Shown here piece after piece: positions 31,456 to 37,883 of a stretch of DNA of 64,000 nucleotides. The translations under genes and the position numbers were made by a program. The notes beneath the pieces were generated by a model. That model was not told the DNA's origin. It saw only the letters and a program-made list of their open reading frames with translations, and did no database searches. The first letter of the stretch is position 1. Each line of letters begins with the position of its first letter. The stretch is from Desulfobacteraceae bacterium (GTDB lineage: Bacteria; Desulfobacterota; Desulfobacteria; Desulfobacterales; Desulfosalsimonadaceae): contig JAABSH010000001.1 of NCBI GenBank assembly GCA_011390465.1, positions 124,001 through 188,000 of the forward strand, in the 5' to 3' direction.

Positions 31456-31886
31456 GGCACTCCCGCATGTTGCTAATAAAAATAACTATTCATTTCTTTA
31501 TTACGTTTATAAAACATTGCATAAATTAAGCCAATAATTTAAAATTCTGCAAAAAGGAATAAATCGGGAATATGTACGTGTGGACATTAAAGCCGATGCA
31601 ACGATTATTCGTAACGAAATATCAATTAAATGTATCATTTCGTTTCAGGAATTTATCCGCGCAAGTTTGGGCATCAAGAAGGGCGGATAAATTGTATTGC
31701 AACAGGTGAGCCTTTCAGGATCAAACACCAACGCTCTTTAAAATGTTTTTTTAATATGAGAAGTTAAGGGTCATTTGCATCCTTTCCTGCATCCTGCACG
31801 GACCCCATGCCTGCGCGATGCCGCGTGGACTATTTGACCGATTGATCGCCTTTTGGAAAATTCGCGCTTCAAACACTCTTTGACAA
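31456..31886. promoter_or_regulatory. Upstream region of the hybrid kinase gene with TTCGT-ACGAA motifs
   Basis: A 431-bp gap. TTCGTAACGAA (31608-31618) overlaps a split dyad, ACGAAAT (31614-31620) and ATTTCGT (31637-31643), about 150 bp upstream of the kinase start. These match the palindromes upstream of the sigma-54 regulator. The rest of the gap shows no gene or terminator that can be supported. Confidence 0.5.
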
Positions 31887-32084
31887 TGGATTCAACGACA
31901 TCCGGTTATCAGTTTCCCTATCGTGTATTTGGGTTGGGCCTATCTATTCTGGACCCCTGTGTTGCTCAGCGATACTTCAATCTGGGAATTTCCCTCACTG
32001 TTATGGTTCCTGATTGGTGGGGCCAGCCCGCTGATTGCCGGTATCTTATTGGCCAGCCTGGAAGGCGTCTATATTCACGATTGA
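31887..32084 (+). pseudogene. CPBP protease remnant (N-terminal fragment)
   Basis: A 65-codon stretch with no usable start. It reads IVYLGWAYLFWTPVLLSDTS, then FLIGGASPLIAGILLASLEG and stops at 32082. That wording (Y-L-F-W-T-P and G-G-A-S-P-L-I-A) resembles the first two membrane segments of CPBP family proteases. The catalytic EExxR, FxxxH and HxxxN blocks are absent. It ends 20 bp before a serine hydrolase gene, in the same order as the intact CPBP-hydrolase pair at 23.2-25.3 kb. Confidence 0.5.
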
Positions 32085-32104
32085 CAGTTTATAGGAAACG
32101 AAGA

Positions 32105-33256
32105 ATGCAAAAATGGATTTGTTTTTTTGGGGTTATTTTTGTAGCGGTCACTACCGGCTGCAACACAATGTACGGAGAACATAACGGGGCCATCGAATCC
32201 GAATGGCATTGGAAAAAGGAGTCTCCCGAAAGCCAGGGCATCCGGTCTGAAGATTTGGCTAGAATGGTTGAGTACATCGACAGCAACAAGATATCGATTC
32301 ACAGCATCATAATATATAAAAATGGAACGATCCCCTTGGAGGTGTACTTCAAACCATACAACAAAAATGTTTCACACAATATGAAATCGACTAGCAAAGG
32401 CGTTATTTCCGCGTTAATCGGTATTGCGCTACGCGAAGGATACATAGAAAGTCTTGACGAAAGCGCCTTTTCTTACTTTCCAGAGTACGATGTGAAGAGC
32501 AGCGGCCGAAAATCGGACATAACATTAAGGGATTTGCTCACGATGTCCTCTGGGTTAAAATGGGAAGAAAACAGTCTCAATAGCATGTATACTTTCTTTG
32601 TCAGCAAACGCATTGTAAAGAGAGTTCTGAACCAACCGCTCGTAAGCGAGCCTGGATCAAAGTTCAACTATAATACCGGGTTGACACATCTGTTATCGGC
32701 CATCATTTCGAAAGCCTCGGGGACGAGTACGTTGCAGTTCGCCGAACGGTATCTCTTCCAGCCACTGGATATACATAACGTTCAATGGAAACAGGACAGA
32801 GATGGTTTCCATATTGGGGGATCCGAATTGTTTCTGACACCGCGAGCCATGACTAAGTTCGCGGTGATGTATTTAGATGGTGGAAAGTACGCTGGCCGGC
32901 AAATCGTCCCCAAAGACTGGGTAACAGAATCGACGGTGACCCAGATGGAAGGGCTCTTTCACGGCGCACGAGTCAAATATGGTTATCTCTGGTGGGTCGA
33001 TATCGGTAACCAGTTATTCACTTATCTGGATAATGAGAAAAATTTTCTTGCGATGGGTGTACACGGACAGAGAATTTATATTTGTAAGAATCTCGACGCG
33101 GTGGTTGTTATTACCGCGAATCAAAGTGACGAGTCGCAGTGCGACATCCTCATTCGAGACTTTATCATGCCAGCTTTTTCGAAAGAAGTTGCTCTGCCCG
33201 GCAATCCGACAGCCGAAACCAGGCTGCGTGAAGTTGTAAACAACGTTGGACAATAG
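32105..33256 (+). CDS. Serine hydrolase lipoprotein, beta-lactamase fold
   Basis: A 383-aa SxxK hydrolase distinct from the one at 23.2 kb. The start at 32105 gives a lipoprotein signal, MQKWICFFGVIFVAVTTGC, with the lipobox VTTGC; a longer frame to 31853 would read through the CPBP remnant. Motif 1 is STSKG in HNMKSTSKGVISALIG near residue 95. Motif 2 is FNYNTGLTHLLSAI near residue 187, and motif 3 is HGQRIYI near residue 320. The family includes 6-aminohexanoate-oligomer hydrolases, esterases and DD-peptidases. No substrate can be assigned. An attC-like fold follows at 33314. Confidence 0.85.
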   Translation: MQKWICFFGVIFVAVTTGCNTMYGEHNGAIESEWHWKKESPESQGIRSEDLARMVEYIDSNKISIHSIIIYKNGTIPLEVYFKPYNKNVSHNMKSTSKGVISALIGIALREGYIESLDESAFSYFPEYDVKSSGRKSDITLRDLLTMSSGLKWEENSLNSMYTFFVSKRIVKRVLNQPLVSEPGSKFNYNTGLTHLLSAIISKASGTSTLQFAERYLFQPLDIHNVQWKQDRDGFHIGGSELFLTPRAMTKFAVMYLDGGKYAGRQIVPKDWVTESTVTQMEGLFHGARVKYGYLWWVDIGNQLFTYLDNEKNFLAMGVHGQRIYICKNLDAVVVITANQSDESQCDILIRDFIMPAFSKEVALPGNPTAETRLREVVNNVGQ

Positions 33257-33447: not shown

Positions 33448-35703
33448 TCATTTGGTCTCCAGCATTGCAGTATGGATTTTTTGGCATAAGTCCATATCCG
33501 CTTTCAGCGGTTTCCCGTCCAGGTGAAGGGCCGGCACCGCGCCGATCAGTGAATTGGTCAGGATCACCGTGTCCGCGGAAAAGAGATTCCGGGGCATTAT
33601 GTTGCGTTTTTCAATCTGATATCCCTGGCCGGCAAGCTGATGAACCACCTGTTTTTCCATGACACCGGCAAGCACATGGCGGGATATGGGCAGATAAATC
33701 ATGCTGCCGGAAATCAGAAAAATATTTGCGGTATTGGTTTCAGAAACAGAACCCTCGGGATTTAAAATCAGGGCCTCGTCCGCGCCGTGTTTTTGCGCCC
33801 ATTTTCCGGCCAGATAGTAATAGGCATAATTGAGTGTTTTGTGCTCCGCCAGCGGGGTCTGGCGGGGATGGGGATATGACAGTAAATCCAGCCCATTTTT
33901 GCGGGTCAGGGCCGGGCGGGGGGTATATTTTTTCGCAGCCACCATCAGATTGGGACGATGAAAAAAAGAATCTGCCGGGCCGTGCGATGCCATGATTTTA
34001 ACCGCTGCAATGTCGTTTTCCAGATGATTGGCCGCTACGGCCTGCCGGAGAATTTCATGCCAGGTGAGATCCGGCACCTTTAACTCAAACAGTGTTTTCC
34101 AGGCCCGGTAAAACCGGCTGATATGATCCTCCAGAAACAATGGCCGGCCCCTGTCCACCCGGATGGTTTCAAAAAATCCCAACCCGTATTGCACCCCCAG
34201 ATCTGAAACCGGAAGCACCGCCTCTCCGGCAGGAACCAGCTTCCCGTTCTGCCACACCCATTCCGGTTTTTTGGGGCCAGATTTTTGGGCGTCCAGCACC
34301 TCCATCAGGGACCGGCCCTTGTGCAGGGTCTCTTCAAATTCATCTGCCGGATCTGAATCAAACACCACGCCCCCGCCCACGGAAAAAAATATCCGGTTCT
34401 GAAAAATTGTGGCCGTGCGGATGGCAATGGACAGATCCAGGCTGTTGTGAAAGCTCAAATATCCGATGGACCCGGTATAAACATGCCGCCGCACCGGCTC
34501 CAGCTCATCAATGATTTCCATGGCCCGGATCCGGGGACATCCGGTGATGGAGCCGCCGGGAAAGGCCGCTTCGAGAAGATCCACAGAATCTTTTCCATGG
34601 GCCAGCTCCCCTTCAACCACCGACACCAGGTGAAACACATTGTGATAAGCTTCCAGCCGTCTGTGTTCCGCCACCCGCACACTGCGGCCACGGCATACCC
34701 GTCCCAGATCATTTCGCATCAAATCCACAATCATGGACAGCTCGGCATCATCTTTGGGGCTGCGCGCAAGCGCTTCCCGAAATTTCTGGTCCTCGGCAGG
34801 GTCTTTTCCCCGGGGCCGGGTGCCTTTAATCGGACGGGTCTCCACATCATTTTCCCGACGGCGCAAAAACCGTTCCGGAGACGTGGAAACAATCCAGTGA
34901 TCCCCGGCATGAACATAGGCATAAAAAGGGCCGGGCGCGGTCTGATAAAGGCTGCTGAAAAGGGCGAACGGGTCCCCGGAAAAATCCGTTTCAAACCGCT
35001 GGGACAAATTCACCTGATAAATATCGCCCGCGGCAAGATAGTCTTTTATTTTGCCAACAGCAGCCATATACTGTGCCCTGGTGAATGAAGACGTATATCC
35101 GGACGCACCCGCGACAAACCCGGGCGGTTTTGCTGAAGGGTTTTTCAGCAGCGATTCAATGGATTCCGGAATATCGCCCATGGGACCATTTTTTTCATCC
35201 ACGCGCTGTGTCACGCACAGCCAAAATTTTTTTTCCTTTTTATCGCAGCAAACAACCGCGGACGGCGCAAACAGGCAAAGATGCGGAAGCCCCAGATCAT
35301 CAATTGCAGTGCGGGGCAAGGCTTCAGTAAAATCTTTTAAATCATAGGAGAAATATCCAAACAGGCCGCAGGCCACCGGCAGAGCAGGGGGATTTACAGG
35401 CAACGCATAGGCGGCCATCACCTGCCGGAGAAAATCAAATGGATTTTCTTTTATCTCAATAGTTTTTCCGGATACGCAAACGCTCATGCGGGTGCCCCGG
35501 GCTTTTATTTCCAGCCAGGGGTTGACGGCCAGAATATGATATCGGGCACAGTCCAGGTCACCGCCGCTTAAAAGGGCCACCGTGCCGGGATTTTTTGAAA
35601 ACCGGGCCGCCAGTTCTAAAAATGACATATTTAAATCCAGCGGAGTTACGACAACGTTTTTTATTTTCCCGGTCAGTTTACAGAGCGCATCCATGCCGGT
35701 CAT
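33448..35703 (-). CDS. pabB: Aminodeoxychorismate synthase component I fused to 4-amino-4-deoxychorismate lyase
   Basis: A 751-aa bifunctional folate-pathway protein. Residues 1-460 are the chorismate-binding PabB part, with ARYHILAVNPWLEI at the front, then IYQVNLSQRFET and the diagnostic RPIKGTRPRG near 290. SITGCPRIRAMEIIDELEP follows near 360. Residues 485-751 are the PLP-dependent PabC lyase: PVSDLGVQYGLGFFETIRVD, the lysine in EHKTLNYAYYYLAG, then PEGSVSETNTANIFLI. Together with PabA it converts chorismate to 4-aminobenzoate. Fused PabB-PabC proteins are known in several bacteria. The pabA gene is 18 bp upstream. Confidence 0.93.
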   Translation of the reverse strand: MTGMDALCKLTGKIKNVVVTPLDLNMSFLELAARFSKNPGTVALLSGGDLDCARYHILAVNPWLEIKARGTRMSVCVSGKTIEIKENPFDFLRQVMAAYALPVNPPALPVACGLFGYFSYDLKDFTEALPRTAIDDLGLPHLCLFAPSAVVCCDKKEKKFWLCVTQRVDEKNGPMGDIPESIESLLKNPSAKPPGFVAGASGYTSSFTRAQYMAAVGKIKDYLAAGDIYQVNLSQRFETDFSGDPFALFSSLYQTAPGPFYAYVHAGDHWIVSTSPERFLRRRENDVETRPIKGTRPRGKDPAEDQKFREALARSPKDDAELSMIVDLMRNDLGRVCRGRSVRVAEHRRLEAYHNVFHLVSVVEGELAHGKDSVDLLEAAFPGGSITGCPRIRAMEIIDELEPVRRHVYTGSIGYLSFHNSLDLSIAIRTATIFQNRIFFSVGGGVVFDSDPADEFEETLHKGRSLMEVLDAQKSGPKKPEWVWQNGKLVPAGEAVLPVSDLGVQYGLGFFETIRVDRGRPLFLEDHISRFYRAWKTLFELKVPDLTWHEILRQAVAANHLENDIAAVKIMASHGPADSFFHRPNLMVAAKKYTPRPALTRKNGLDLLSYPHPRQTPLAEHKTLNYAYYYLAGKWAQKHGADEALILNPEGSVSETNTANIFLISGSMIYLPISRHVLAGVMEKQVVHQLAGQGYQIEKRNIMPRNLFSADTVILTNSLIGAVPALHLDGKPLKADMDLCQKIHTAMLETK

Positions 35704-35721: not shown

Positions 35722-36324
35722 TCAGGCCGCCACCGGGCTGCGGCATTCGCGCAACGGCCCCTGGTGTAAAAAATTTTCAATGAGCTTTTCGCCATTTTCC
35801 GTCATAAAGCTTTCCGGGTGAAACTGGACACCGGTCAGCAGCTGTTTTTTATGTGAGATTCCCATGACCACACCGTCTTCGGAACGGGCGGTAACGCGCA
35901 GATCCGGGGAGTTGATCGCCACCCGAAGCGAATGATAGCGGGCCGCTGTAAACGGAGACGGCAGGCCGTTAAAAACAGCGGTATTATCATGATAAACCCG
36001 GCTGGTCTTGCCGTGCACCGGCACCGGAGCGCGCACCGTATCCCCGCCCAGGGCGGCATTGATACACTGCATGCCCAGACACACCCCCAAAACAGGAATT
36101 TTCCCGGCAAAACAGGCGATTGCGGAAACAGAAAGGCCACTGTTTGCGGGATCTCCGGGGCCGGGGCTGATGACAAGATAATCCGGCAGCAGCGATTCCA
36201 TCTGCGCAAGGGTCAGTTTGTCGCTTCGGCACACTGTCACGGACAGGCTTTGATAAGCCAAAAACATCTGCACCAGGTTATGGGTAAAAGAATCATAATT
36301 ATCGATCACCAGAACGCGATTCAT
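35722..36324 (-). CDS. pabA: Glutamine amidotransferase component of aminodeoxychorismate/anthranilate synthase
   Basis: A 200-aa class I glutamine amidotransferase that supplies ammonia to PabB. The start NRVLVIDNYDSFTHNLVQMF is typical. Catalytic triad regions: GVCLGMQCI (Cys near residue 78), and HPESFM with the His and Glu near 170. LVISPGPGDP forms the oxyanion region. ATG at 36324 with GGAG upstream is chosen over an in-frame ATG at 36351, which lies inside the leader hairpin. TrpG is an alternative name, but 18-bp linkage to PabB-PabC favours folate synthesis. Confidence 0.93.
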   Translation of the reverse strand: MNRVLVIDNYDSFTHNLVQMFLAYQSLSVTVCRSDKLTLAQMESLLPDYLVISPGPGDPANSGLSVSAIACFAGKIPVLGVCLGMQCINAALGGDTVRAPVPVHGKTSRVYHDNTAVFNGLPSPFTAARYHSLRVAINSPDLRVTARSEDGVVMGISHKKQLLTGVQFHPESFMTENGEKLIENFLHQGPLRECRSPVAA

Positions 36325-36342
36325 TTGTCTTCTCCACAAAAA

Positions 36343-36374
36343 AAACGCCACCCCGACGAGTCTGGGTGGCGTTT
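36343..36374 (-). terminator. Intrinsic terminator-like hairpin in the pabA leader (possible attenuator)
   Basis: An 11-bp perfect stem (36343-36353 with 36364-36374) with a 10-nt loop. On the minus strand it runs straight into U8 (36345-36338). It ends only 14-19 bp before the pabA start codon and points in the same direction as pabA. No minus-strand gene lies upstream that would need a terminator. Confidence 0.7.
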
Positions 36375-36490
36375 GCCTGTTTCATAACTCTTTTAACTGA
36401 CGTTTATCAAAAATTTGGGTATTTTTTTAACTGTTGCCGCCATAAAAAGCAAGTCTAAACTTTCCTGTCAGTGCGCGTACTGGAAATACG

Positions 36491-36499
36491 ATTATAACA
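36491..36499 (-). promoter_or_regulatory. Extended -10 promoter for the pabA leader
   Basis: On the minus strand TGTTATAAT gives an extended -10 (TGn before a perfect TATAAT). The -35 is weak. Transcription would start near 36484, giving a leader of about 160 nt that contains the terminator-like hairpin. Confidence 0.55.
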
Positions 36500-36532
36500 T
36501 CAATAATTCCTGATTATTAAACAGTTTCGCGC

Positions 36533-36561
36533 TTGACAAAAGCCTTCAGTCCCTTTAAACT
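36533..36561 (+). promoter_or_regulatory. Promoter of the double-OmpA lipoprotein gene
   Basis: TTGACA (36533-36538), 17-bp spacer, TAAACT (36556-36561). The leader to the ATG at 36729 is about 160 nt. It contains two copies of CCGGATAAACAC, near 36673 and 36709. Confidence 0.55.
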
Positions 36562-36728: not shown

Positions 36729-37883
36729 ATGAAACTTAATTTCTTTTCAGCGGGAATCCTGTACCTGACAATGGTCTGCCTGGTACTTATCATCGGGTGC
36801 AAATCCTTTCAAACCGCCTATTTCGGCATTGAAGACGAAGCCCTTACCGCGCCGGTGGAATTTTATCAGACCCGGCTGACGGTTGAATCCGCGAAAAAAT
36901 CCGCGGATTCTCTTTATGCGGAAAAAAAAATCGACCAGGCCATGGACCAGGGAGAGCAGGCCGCCATTGCCTACTGGAAATGCTTTGACCAGGCCGCCAA
37001 AAATATGCTGGCCGTGGCCCGCCAGTCCGCCTTCCGGTCCGAGCTGTTTCATCCCCAGCCCCCGCCGCCGGCTGCTGAACGGACCAGCGCCATCCCCGGC
37101 ACGCCGGAGACACCGGAAAGCCTGAAGGCGGACAACATGTTTGCCGGGGTCATTGCCCTGCCGCCGCGGATGATTCTGGAAACCGTTTATTTTGATTATG
37201 ATTCTTTCAAACTGTCCGCCTATGACAAAACCCTGCTCGAAAATCAGCTTCCGATATTAAAACAACACACGGATGTTGTCTTTGAAATTGCGGGCCACAC
37301 CGATGCCGCAGGCTCGGATGCCTACAACCAGATTTTGTCCGGAAGACGGGCGGGCAGTGTTAAAAATTATTTATCCGCCGGCGGCATTTCCGCAGATCAG
37401 CTCTATGTAATCAGTTATGGCGAATCCGATCCGTTTTATTCCAACAAAACCCCGGAAGGGCAGGCCAGAAACCGGCGCTCTGAAATCCGGGTTACCGGCT
37501 CCCTGCTGCCGGAAATTGCCTTAAAAAATATGGACACCCTGCCGGTCGGCACGACCCTTGAGGTTGTCCACTTCAATTTTGGCGAAGTTCAGTTGCTGCC
37601 GGTTTATCAGGCCCTGCTTGAAAAAACCGCCCCCCTTTTAAACAGCAGCCCGGAGGTAAAGCTGGAGATCACCGGCCACACGGACAGCTATGGATCGGAT
37701 AAAAAAAACCTGGCCCTGTCTTTAAAACGCACCAGCGCGGTCAAAGACTTCCTCATTGCCCGGGGGGTTTCCAAAAACCGTCTGACCACCGCCATTTATG
37801 CTGACAAACATCCCATCGCCTCCAACCTGACAGACATCGGTAAAAAATTAAACCGCCGGGTGGAAATAAAAATAGCGAATTAA
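36729..37883 (+). CDS. Lipoprotein with two tandem OmpA-like peptidoglycan-binding domains
   Basis: A 384-aa outer-membrane lipoprotein. The signal peptide ends in the lipobox LIIGC near residue 24. Residues 35-110 form a helical region (TVESAKKSADSLYAEKKIDQ) resembling DUF4398 helices. A first OmpA_C domain covers about 145-255: TVYFDYDSFKLSAYDK, then EIAGHTDAAGSDAYNQILSG and NRRSEIRV. A second covers about 270-384: VVHFNFGEVQLLP, EITGHTDSYGSDKKNLALS and NRRVEIKI. Both carry the D and R residues that contact meso-diaminopimelate. Having two domains in one chain is unusual and suggests bivalent anchoring to peptidoglycan. Confidence 0.88.
   Translation: MKLNFFSAGILYLTMVCLVLIIGCKSFQTAYFGIEDEALTAPVEFYQTRLTVESAKKSADSLYAEKKIDQAMDQGEQAAIAYWKCFDQAAKNMLAVARQSAFRSELFHPQPPPPAAERTSAIPGTPETPESLKADNMFAGVIALPPRMILETVYFDYDSFKLSAYDKTLLENQLPILKQHTDVVFEIAGHTDAAGSDAYNQILSGRRAGSVKNYLSAGGISADQLYVISYGESDPFYSNKTPEGQARNRRSEIRVTGSLLPEIALKNMDTLPVGTTLEVVHFNFGEVQLLPVYQALLEKTAPLLNSSPEVKLEITGHTDSYGSDKKNLALSLKRTSAVKDFLIARGVSKNRLTTAIYADKHPIASNLTDIGKKLNRRVEIKIAN

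Follow-up and report, generated by a model that had tools for sequence, protein, structure and literature searches.

The window, by which we mean the whole 64,000-nt stretch of DNA that was analysed, carries on its minus strand a pabA gene with a terminator in its leader (Table 1); the leader sequence reads GAGUUAUGAAACAGGCAAACGCCACCCAGACUCGUCGGGGUGGCGUUUUUUUUGUGGAGAAGACAAAUG. The gene was designated pabA and not trpG, a close relative, because it precedes pabBC. The PabBC protein contains PIKGT and scored 352.7 bits with the pabB model TIGR00553, above the cut-off of 328.4, and 383.7 bits with the trpE model TIGR00564, below the cut-off of 517.7; its lyase domain (residues 494–728) scored below the cut-off of the lyase model. 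The neighbour upstream of pabA is a divergent plus-strand ORF (36729–37883) and thus, as the first-pass annotation had stated, no upstream gene needs the terminator. By eye, the C-terminal part of this ORF resembles tandem OmpA-type repeats. It is preceded by a promoter-like TTGACA-17-TAAACT element (36533–36561, plus strand), the sequence of which is recognisable in four relatives of the genus (L034, L035, L037, and L039). On the other side, an ORF converging on pabBC (31853–33256, plus strand) looks like a member of the serine beta-lactamase/esterase family by eye, and its TTG start and N-terminus appear doubtful. A dihydropteroate synthase (DHPS) gene (TIGR01496) is located on the same contig, about 3.5 kb before the window start (G000:C31:119733-120524), and the model search of the own genome did not find the RNA block described below at this gene.

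Table 1 Features of the pabA leader and the genes behind it.
Feature	Position in window	Strand	Evidence or remark
Promoter-like element: -35 TTAATA, 18-nt spacer, extended -10 TG-T-TATAAT	36491–36520	-	Consensus scan, 10/12
P1 5' strand, GAGU	36387–36390	-	Pairs with ACUC (36361–36358); compensatory changes in relatives
Internal loop, 5' side, UAUGAAACA (consensus UAUGNNAYA)	36378–36386	-	1–2 nt shorter in some relatives
P2 5' strand, GGC	36375–36377	-	Pairs with GCC (36370–36368); extended or covarying in relatives
P2 3' strand, GCC, common to the terminator 5' arm (switching strand)	36368–36370	-	Coordinated changes in L277 and L278
Internal loop, 3' side, ACCCAG	36362–36367	-	ACCC also in the terminator 5' arm; A invariant
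P1 3' strand, ACUC, within the terminator loop	36358–36361	-	Covariation analysis and RNAalifold
Terminator hairpin, 11 bp	36374–36343	-	Sequence read directly; arms AAACGCCACCC / GGGUGGCGUUU
U8 tract	36345–36338	-	Sequence read directly; first 3 bases also paired in the hairpin
Shine-Dalgarno-like GGAG of pabA	36335–36332	-	Sequence read directly
pabA, glutamine amidotransferase of 4-amino-4-deoxychorismate synthase	35722–36324	-	ATG at 36324–36322
pabBC fusion, aminodeoxychorismate synthase component I and lyase domain	33448–35703	-	NCBIfam models and PIKGT motif

The 11-bp hairpin and U8 tract directly before the pabA ribosome site, which the first-pass annotation had pointed out, were confirmed by the sequence and by conservation in relatives. 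The extended -10 promoter that it had placed upstream fared less evenly. TG-T-TATAAT with the -10 at 36496–36491 is present and scored 10/12, but conservation of this -10 was not seen in the seven genus relatives aligned. Neither the scan for terminators nor the folding of the whole leader makes the case alone, because 14 terminator-like sites were found in 5 kb by the consensus scan against 8.3 expected, and the folding stability of the leader is ordinary (z = -0.80; 46 of 200 shuffles were as stable or more). It is conservation that settles the matter, and on this ground the predicted terminator in the pabA leader is real.

A blastn search with the 261-nt leader gave matches in 48 of 98 genomes, the own genome included, mostly at query positions ~171–223, corresponding to the terminator hairpin and the 16 nt before it. 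The conserved block is about 53 nt long (36390–36338, minus strand). Within the genus, strong conservation is limited to these last ~53 nt, and the segment that separates the promoter from the block differs among relatives in both length and sequence. Among the pabA loci of 80 relatives taken from named genome records, 69 carry the block by pattern and one (L059) carries a degenerate block found by the model, while the fetched DNA of the other 10 gave no model match (L049, L054, L074, L076, L085, L096, L102, L105, L110, and L112). Isolates bearing the motif include Desulfosarcina widdelii (L094), D. alkanivorans (L088), and Desulfatitalea alkaliphila (L101). The distance from block to pabA is mostly 20–60 nt (range 16–255 in the 57 loci matching a stricter pattern). 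A covariance model, R1, was built on the first 37 positions of the block and used with a threshold of E ≤ 0.01. It found a single copy in the own genome (E = 3.5e-11; next match, E = 1.34) and matches in 141 of 389 genomes of the class and 55 of 395 genomes of the phylum, the own genome being counted in both and the filters of these large searches losing weak matches. There is one copy per genome except in G155, which has two. Since the two sets share nine genomes, the matches amount to 188 places. Many genomes containing PabB lack the RNA. This model-based distribution covers genomes of Desulfobacterota, and viral contigs were scanned by one pattern. The matches on five viral contigs were rejected, as tblastn gave no match to PabA or PabBC and no terminator-like U-run followed the match by eye. 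Two identical sequences (L294 and L297; 24.2 bits, E = 8.2e-4 with a model R2) were counted as chance.

The search for conserved antiterminator pairing in relatives, proposed by the first-pass annotation, was successful: a hairpin of two helices, P1 and P2, separated by an internal loop, is conserved and covarying. The key to the mechanism is the conserved GAGUUAUGNNAYAGGC element at its 5' side, which had been missed in the first reading. The A, U, and G of UAUG are identical in all 177 distinct cores kept, a count that excludes one degenerate 32-nt core without UAUG (L059/L198) and comes from cores gathered by a pattern or model favouring this element. The core alone (36392–36356 in the window) folds as P1 and P2 in 169 of 177 sequences (176 loci, with two places counted twice, and the window), with a mean z of -1.7 relative to dinucleotide shuffles. 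In A2, the close relatives as aligned by MAFFT, the two helices are paired in 95.4% of cells versus 93.8% after shuffling (5/500), and covariation in P1 is modest, with one of five pairs changed on both sides and a score reached by 8 of 500 shuffles. When distant matches were added (97 sequences, 94 distinct), changes on both sides appeared in four of the five P1 pairs, with 32 double-change cells versus 9.5 shuffled (no shuffle of 500 as high, and the same for the covariation score). These weak distant matches, which bear most of the P1 covariation, were found by a model that rewards pairing, and their alignment (A3) was fitted to it. Of the 32 double-change cells, 20 belong to the outermost P1 pair, which is unpaired in 35 of the 94 sequences. 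Additional pair types in P1 are not unusually numerous, as 91 of 500 shuffles reached their number. RNAalifold predicted P1 and P2 on the alignment with distant matches. Individual variants of P1 include AAGGU/ACCUU (L204), UUAGGU/ACCUAA (L207), CAAAGU/ACUUUG (L194), and GAGG/CCUC (L176, L183, L188, L192, and L195), and in L107, L174, L182, and L187 a longer P2 is seen, the added bases of its two sides being complementary. A fourth P2 pair is formed in 21 of 59 sequences versus 11.3 shuffled (0 of 5000 shuffles as high). Immediately flanking P1, the -1/+1 pair is formed by 45 of 69 distinct sequences versus 36.2 shuffled (p ~0.003), and further out, from -2/+2 to -5/+5, pairing is not significant. 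The terminator pairing GCCACCC/GGGUGGC is likewise extended by a covarying outer pair, paired in 68 of 68 sequences versus 32.6 shuffled; this count leaves out L109, which has no terminator.

The GCC strand belongs to both P2 and the 5' arm of the terminator. Because the 3' strand of P2 is the terminator 5' arm, the two helices exclude each other. In two loci from different families (L277 and L278; genomes G053 and G122), the upstream strand (GGU), the shared strand (ACC), and the downstream strand (GGU) have changed together. The A of GCCACCC is invariant in 167 distinct sequences kept at five or more of seven terminator pairs, while its partner in the terminator is C in 13, G in three, and A in one. 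This would be expected if the A is needed in the other structure. On the sequence evidence, the conserved domain and the expression platform are mutually exclusive. A terminator with at least six pairs and at least five T in eight was recognised in 171 of the 177 sequences. The rule was missed by L227 and by L165, L196, L225, L277, and L278; for the last two this is partly because the script took GCC as its anchor, and by eye each of them has a hairpin and a U-run. L227, on the same contig as L109, is without a terminator, and in its folded platform a CUCUUC strand pairs with the Shine-Dalgarno region. This single case is perhaps a translational version of the switch. The predicted energy of the terminator hairpin is lower than that of the P1 and P2 core (median -19.0 vs -8.2 kcal/mol; -19.9 vs -7.4 kcal/mol in the window), so the default state should be OFF unless the early hairpin is held.

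To classify the genes behind the RNA, 176 hit loci (L117–L292) were fetched, two places twice. Besides the window there are 187 places, of which this covers 174; the 13 places left out are those of G002, G006, G016, G017, G018, G020, G022, G024, G026, G027, G028, G033, and G069. The RNA is followed by pabA in 152 places (154 loci), by pabB in two (L125 and L135), by a sodium:solute symporter (SSS) in nine (L170, L186, L191, L194, L196, L201, L204, L205, and L207), and by a LivK-type substrate-binding protein of an ABC transporter in eight (L165, L193, L197, L202, L203, L206, L208, and L209), so that pab genes or a transporter follow in 171 of 174 places. The genes in L201 and L203 are fragmentary, lying at the ends of contigs. 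A PabBC match lies behind PabA in 144 of the 154 loci; of the other ten, two end within 20 bases past pabA and eight show no PabBC in the 777–1410 bases left. A PIKGT-like motif in 94 of the 154 pabA loci, with a PIAGT-like motif in two, indicates pab rather than trp genes where this can be judged. The SSS proteins form one ortholog family (47–97% identity among eight), as do the LivK proteins (53–93% among seven), and a LivH-like permease lies behind LivK in L193, L197, L202, L206, and L208 by eye. Among NCBIfam models, panF was nearest to the SSS proteins of L186 and L204, below its cut-off, and a branched-chain amino-acid binding protein was nearest to LivK of L193 and L206, far below its cut-off. 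The genes that carry this conserved structured RNA in their 5' leader are therefore related in metabolism, the transporters being counted by their presumed roles.

No gene was identified after the RNA at L134, at L210 (none before the contig end), and at L282 (contig end). L134 (1501–1580) carries the full motif and terminator with no recognisable gene behind; its genome, G112, is 98% complete and has TrpE and DHPS, and PabB was not called. The motif there is perhaps a relic after loss of the pab gene. At L282 (1–116, reverse strand) the sequence directly past the terminator is GUGCGCCCGGCAUGG..., presumably resembling the 5' end of a group II intron, and Rfam gave no match on the 400-nt stretch; PabB of this genome (G075) is on another contig than the motif.

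In a search with the window PabBC, no PabB was detected in 16 of the 17 genomes where the RNA precedes a transporter. TrpE alone was found in 12, no chorismate enzyme was found in four (G253, G279, G386, and G659), and the counter-example, G521, has both TrpE and PabB. Completeness is 90% or more in ten of the 17, and in nine of these ten no PabB was detected. The motif P[IL]AGT marks TrpE and PIKGT marks PabB. In the six genomes scanned (G350, G654, G509, G436, G247, and G521), the best-scoring NCBIfam model was that of TrpE, three above a trpE cut-off and three below (two being partial ORFs), with two TrpE models scoring alike in G247; the remaining TrpE were judged by the motif, and a fragment in G390 by similarity and by the trpG next to it. 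The two enzymes are told apart by TIGR00553, with 352.7 and 373.8 bits for PabB versus at most 312.7 for eight TrpE, and its cut-off of 328.4 is conservative, being passed in 4 of 14 control genomes. As background, 51% of the phylum genomes and 36% of the class genomes have no PabB above the cut-off, which was passed in 193 of 395 and 248 of 389, respectively. Within the class, 250 genomes matched at E ≤ 1e-97, and the nine transporter genomes of this set are all absent from them; of the eight in the phylum set, one is above the cut-off. The transporter genomes are related genomes (about ten families) with incomplete assemblies, and the statistics are weakened by relatedness. DHPS above the cut-off is present in 13 of the 17 genomes, and therefore most should need 4-aminobenzoate (PABA), the building block of folate that the pab genes supply. 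The simplest reading of these gene contents is that the transporters import PABA or a PABA compound. The combined placement suggests that one signal controls making or importing PABA, as one regulon for PABA supply. Geobacter bemidjiensis is an organism that we take to belong to the same phylum as that of the window. PABA auxotrophy has been reported for it (PMC2996986).

We consider it likely that the block is a cis-acting two-state RNA on PABA genes, most probably a metabolite-sensing ON riboswitch of an undescribed class. In the proposed mechanism, about 37 nt of the nascent leader would fold into an aptamer-like hairpin made of P1 (GAGU/ACUC), an asymmetric conserved internal loop (UAUGNNAYA // AYCCMG), and P2 (GGC/GCC). 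Without ligand, GGGUGGC would capture GCCACCC, opening P2 and P1 and forming the terminator. A ligand that locks the internal loop would keep GCCACCC occupied, so that polymerase reads through and pabA–pabBC is expressed. Both structures, their overlap by one strand, the conservation, and the gene association are read from the sequences; direct binding of a small molecule that turns the gene on is what we infer from them. The alternative left by the first-pass annotation, attenuation or a small RNA, is thus narrowed down. Controlled readthrough is strongly supported by the conserved antiterminator pairing, and the small RNA is unsupported.

The same hairpin could in principle be held by a protein. 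Antitermination by an RNA-binding protein that stabilises P1/P2, as LicT and SacY do with RAT hairpins, short antiterminator hairpins overlapping a terminator, is unlikely in our estimate. A ~37-nt hairpin that has an asymmetric internal loop and overlaps the 5' side of the terminator is indeed RAT-like in size and geometry, and a single copy in all hit genomes but one would fit a dedicated regulator no less than a metabolite. However, the sequence is not known to be related to RAT, and the RAT-binding domain CAT_RBD (PF03123) was found in none of the 20 motif genomes searched versus 4 of 14 control genomes, for which reason a LicT-type regulator was rejected. An OFF switch, in which PABA or folate would stabilise the terminator with GAGU–ACUC loop pairing as an H-type pseudoknot, appears very unlikely. 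It would follow the usual logic of end-product repression, and in sequences with longer loops, the window included, GAGU could pair with the loop ACUC beside the formed terminator. Against this, the nucleotides between ACUC and the terminator 3' arm number zero in L159, L160, L163, L164, L202, and L208, one in L203 and L206, and two in L209, and the pseudoknot inside the terminator is unlikely at these loci because the linker is too short. Moreover, P2 is lost when the terminator forms and yet shows conservation and covariation of its own, and the A of GCCACCC is independent of its terminator partner.

That the terminator merely fixes a low level of expression, as an unregulated attenuator, is highly improbable: it is strong and close to the gene in most loci, but such a device leaves unexplained the GAGUUAUG..AGG element, the covariation in P1/P2, and the occurrence before transporter genes. 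Hardly any credence can be given to a small-RNA gene ending at the terminator. The promoter-like element about 110 nt from the terminator had led to the proposal of a ~140–150-nt small RNA, and L134 is one possible stand-alone case. Yet the body between promoter and block is poorly conserved even in the genus, and the block is tied to a downstream gene, be it pab or a transporter, in nearly all places. Attenuation of the trp type had been doubted from the outset because of the lack of a tryptophan run, and rightly so, as the window leader has no run of Trp codons. It was rejected here, as no conserved leader ORF was found: in 42 or more of the 69 sequences, the frame opened by the conserved AUG closes within two codons, with UAG as the third codon and with variants, and the spacing after the AUG is 2–4 nt.

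Returning to the metabolite-sensing ON riboswitch, most biosynthetic riboswitches respond to the end product by switching their genes off. An ON switch needs a signal of shortage, and the ligand should report that PABA or folate is short, as would, for example, the pterin partner of PABA. By analogy with the HMP-PP riboswitch discussed below, a pterin intermediate awaiting PABA would be a sensible ligand, and PABA, folates, and other signals are also possible. The specific proposal of an ON riboswitch for 6-hydroxymethyl-7,8-dihydropterin or its pyrophosphate is conceivable but doubtful. Such an intermediate would pile up when PABA is short, making the RNA an “other-half” folate sensor that turns on PABA synthesis in prototrophs and SSS or LivK importers in genomes without PabB.

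No previously described family of this kind was present in Rfam or in the open-access literature searched. No Rfam family matches the window at the gathering score, and the leader gave 26 matches at E up to 10, all under the gathering scores. In 20 diverse relatives the sole match was an Acido-Lenti-1 RNA (44.5 bits) at L277 910–955 (minus strand), lying some 1 kb further downstream than the motif. Known RNAs that control genes of the folate pathway include the THF-I, THF-II (folE motif), and ZTP (pfl) riboswitches. These differ from the present RNA in that none of their Rfam models matched the window or the 20 relatives at the gathering score, and they are absent among the 26 relaxed matches of the leader. 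A search of 5.39 million open-access papers gave no pabA, pabB, pabC, trpG, or folP motif, no attenuation RNA or pabA leader RNA, and no PABA riboswitch. No “pab” word occurs in the main texts of two surveys of riboswitch candidates and one survey of attenuation. The trpB and fhsA candidate motifs are similar in being candidate attenuating RNAs with terminators in related metabolism, but they precede other genes, and the main text of that survey contains no word that begins with “pab” and has its sole passage on Desulfobacteraceae under the gcsH motif (PMC11109978). If the proposal is true, a riboswitch class with a very small aptamer extends across much of Desulfobacterota and controls a folate step for which no RNA regulator was listed in the searches of the open-access literature. 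Its placement would also nominate the SSS and LivK families as PABA importers where DHPS is present and PabB undetected.

The RNA is best read as a candidate orphan ON riboswitch whose small aptamer is the antiterminator, working in a manner like that of the HMP-PP riboswitch. In the HMP-PP riboswitch (thiS motif), the aptamer is very small and lies within an intrinsic terminator, and the RNA responds to an abundant precursor of one half of thiamin by readthrough into the genes for the other half (PMC6478431). Both RNAs have two exclusive states, with termination in the unliganded and readthrough in the liganded state, which were established experimentally there and are deduced here. The sequence and geometry are different: here the 3' strand of P2 is the terminator 5' arm and the 3' strand of P1 lies in the terminator loop. 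The genes differ too, being folate precursor genes of Desulfobacterota and not thiamin thiazole genes, so that an aptamer-like hairpin within a terminator is a likeness and not membership. In both cases, the genes under control are those for one half of a vitamin.
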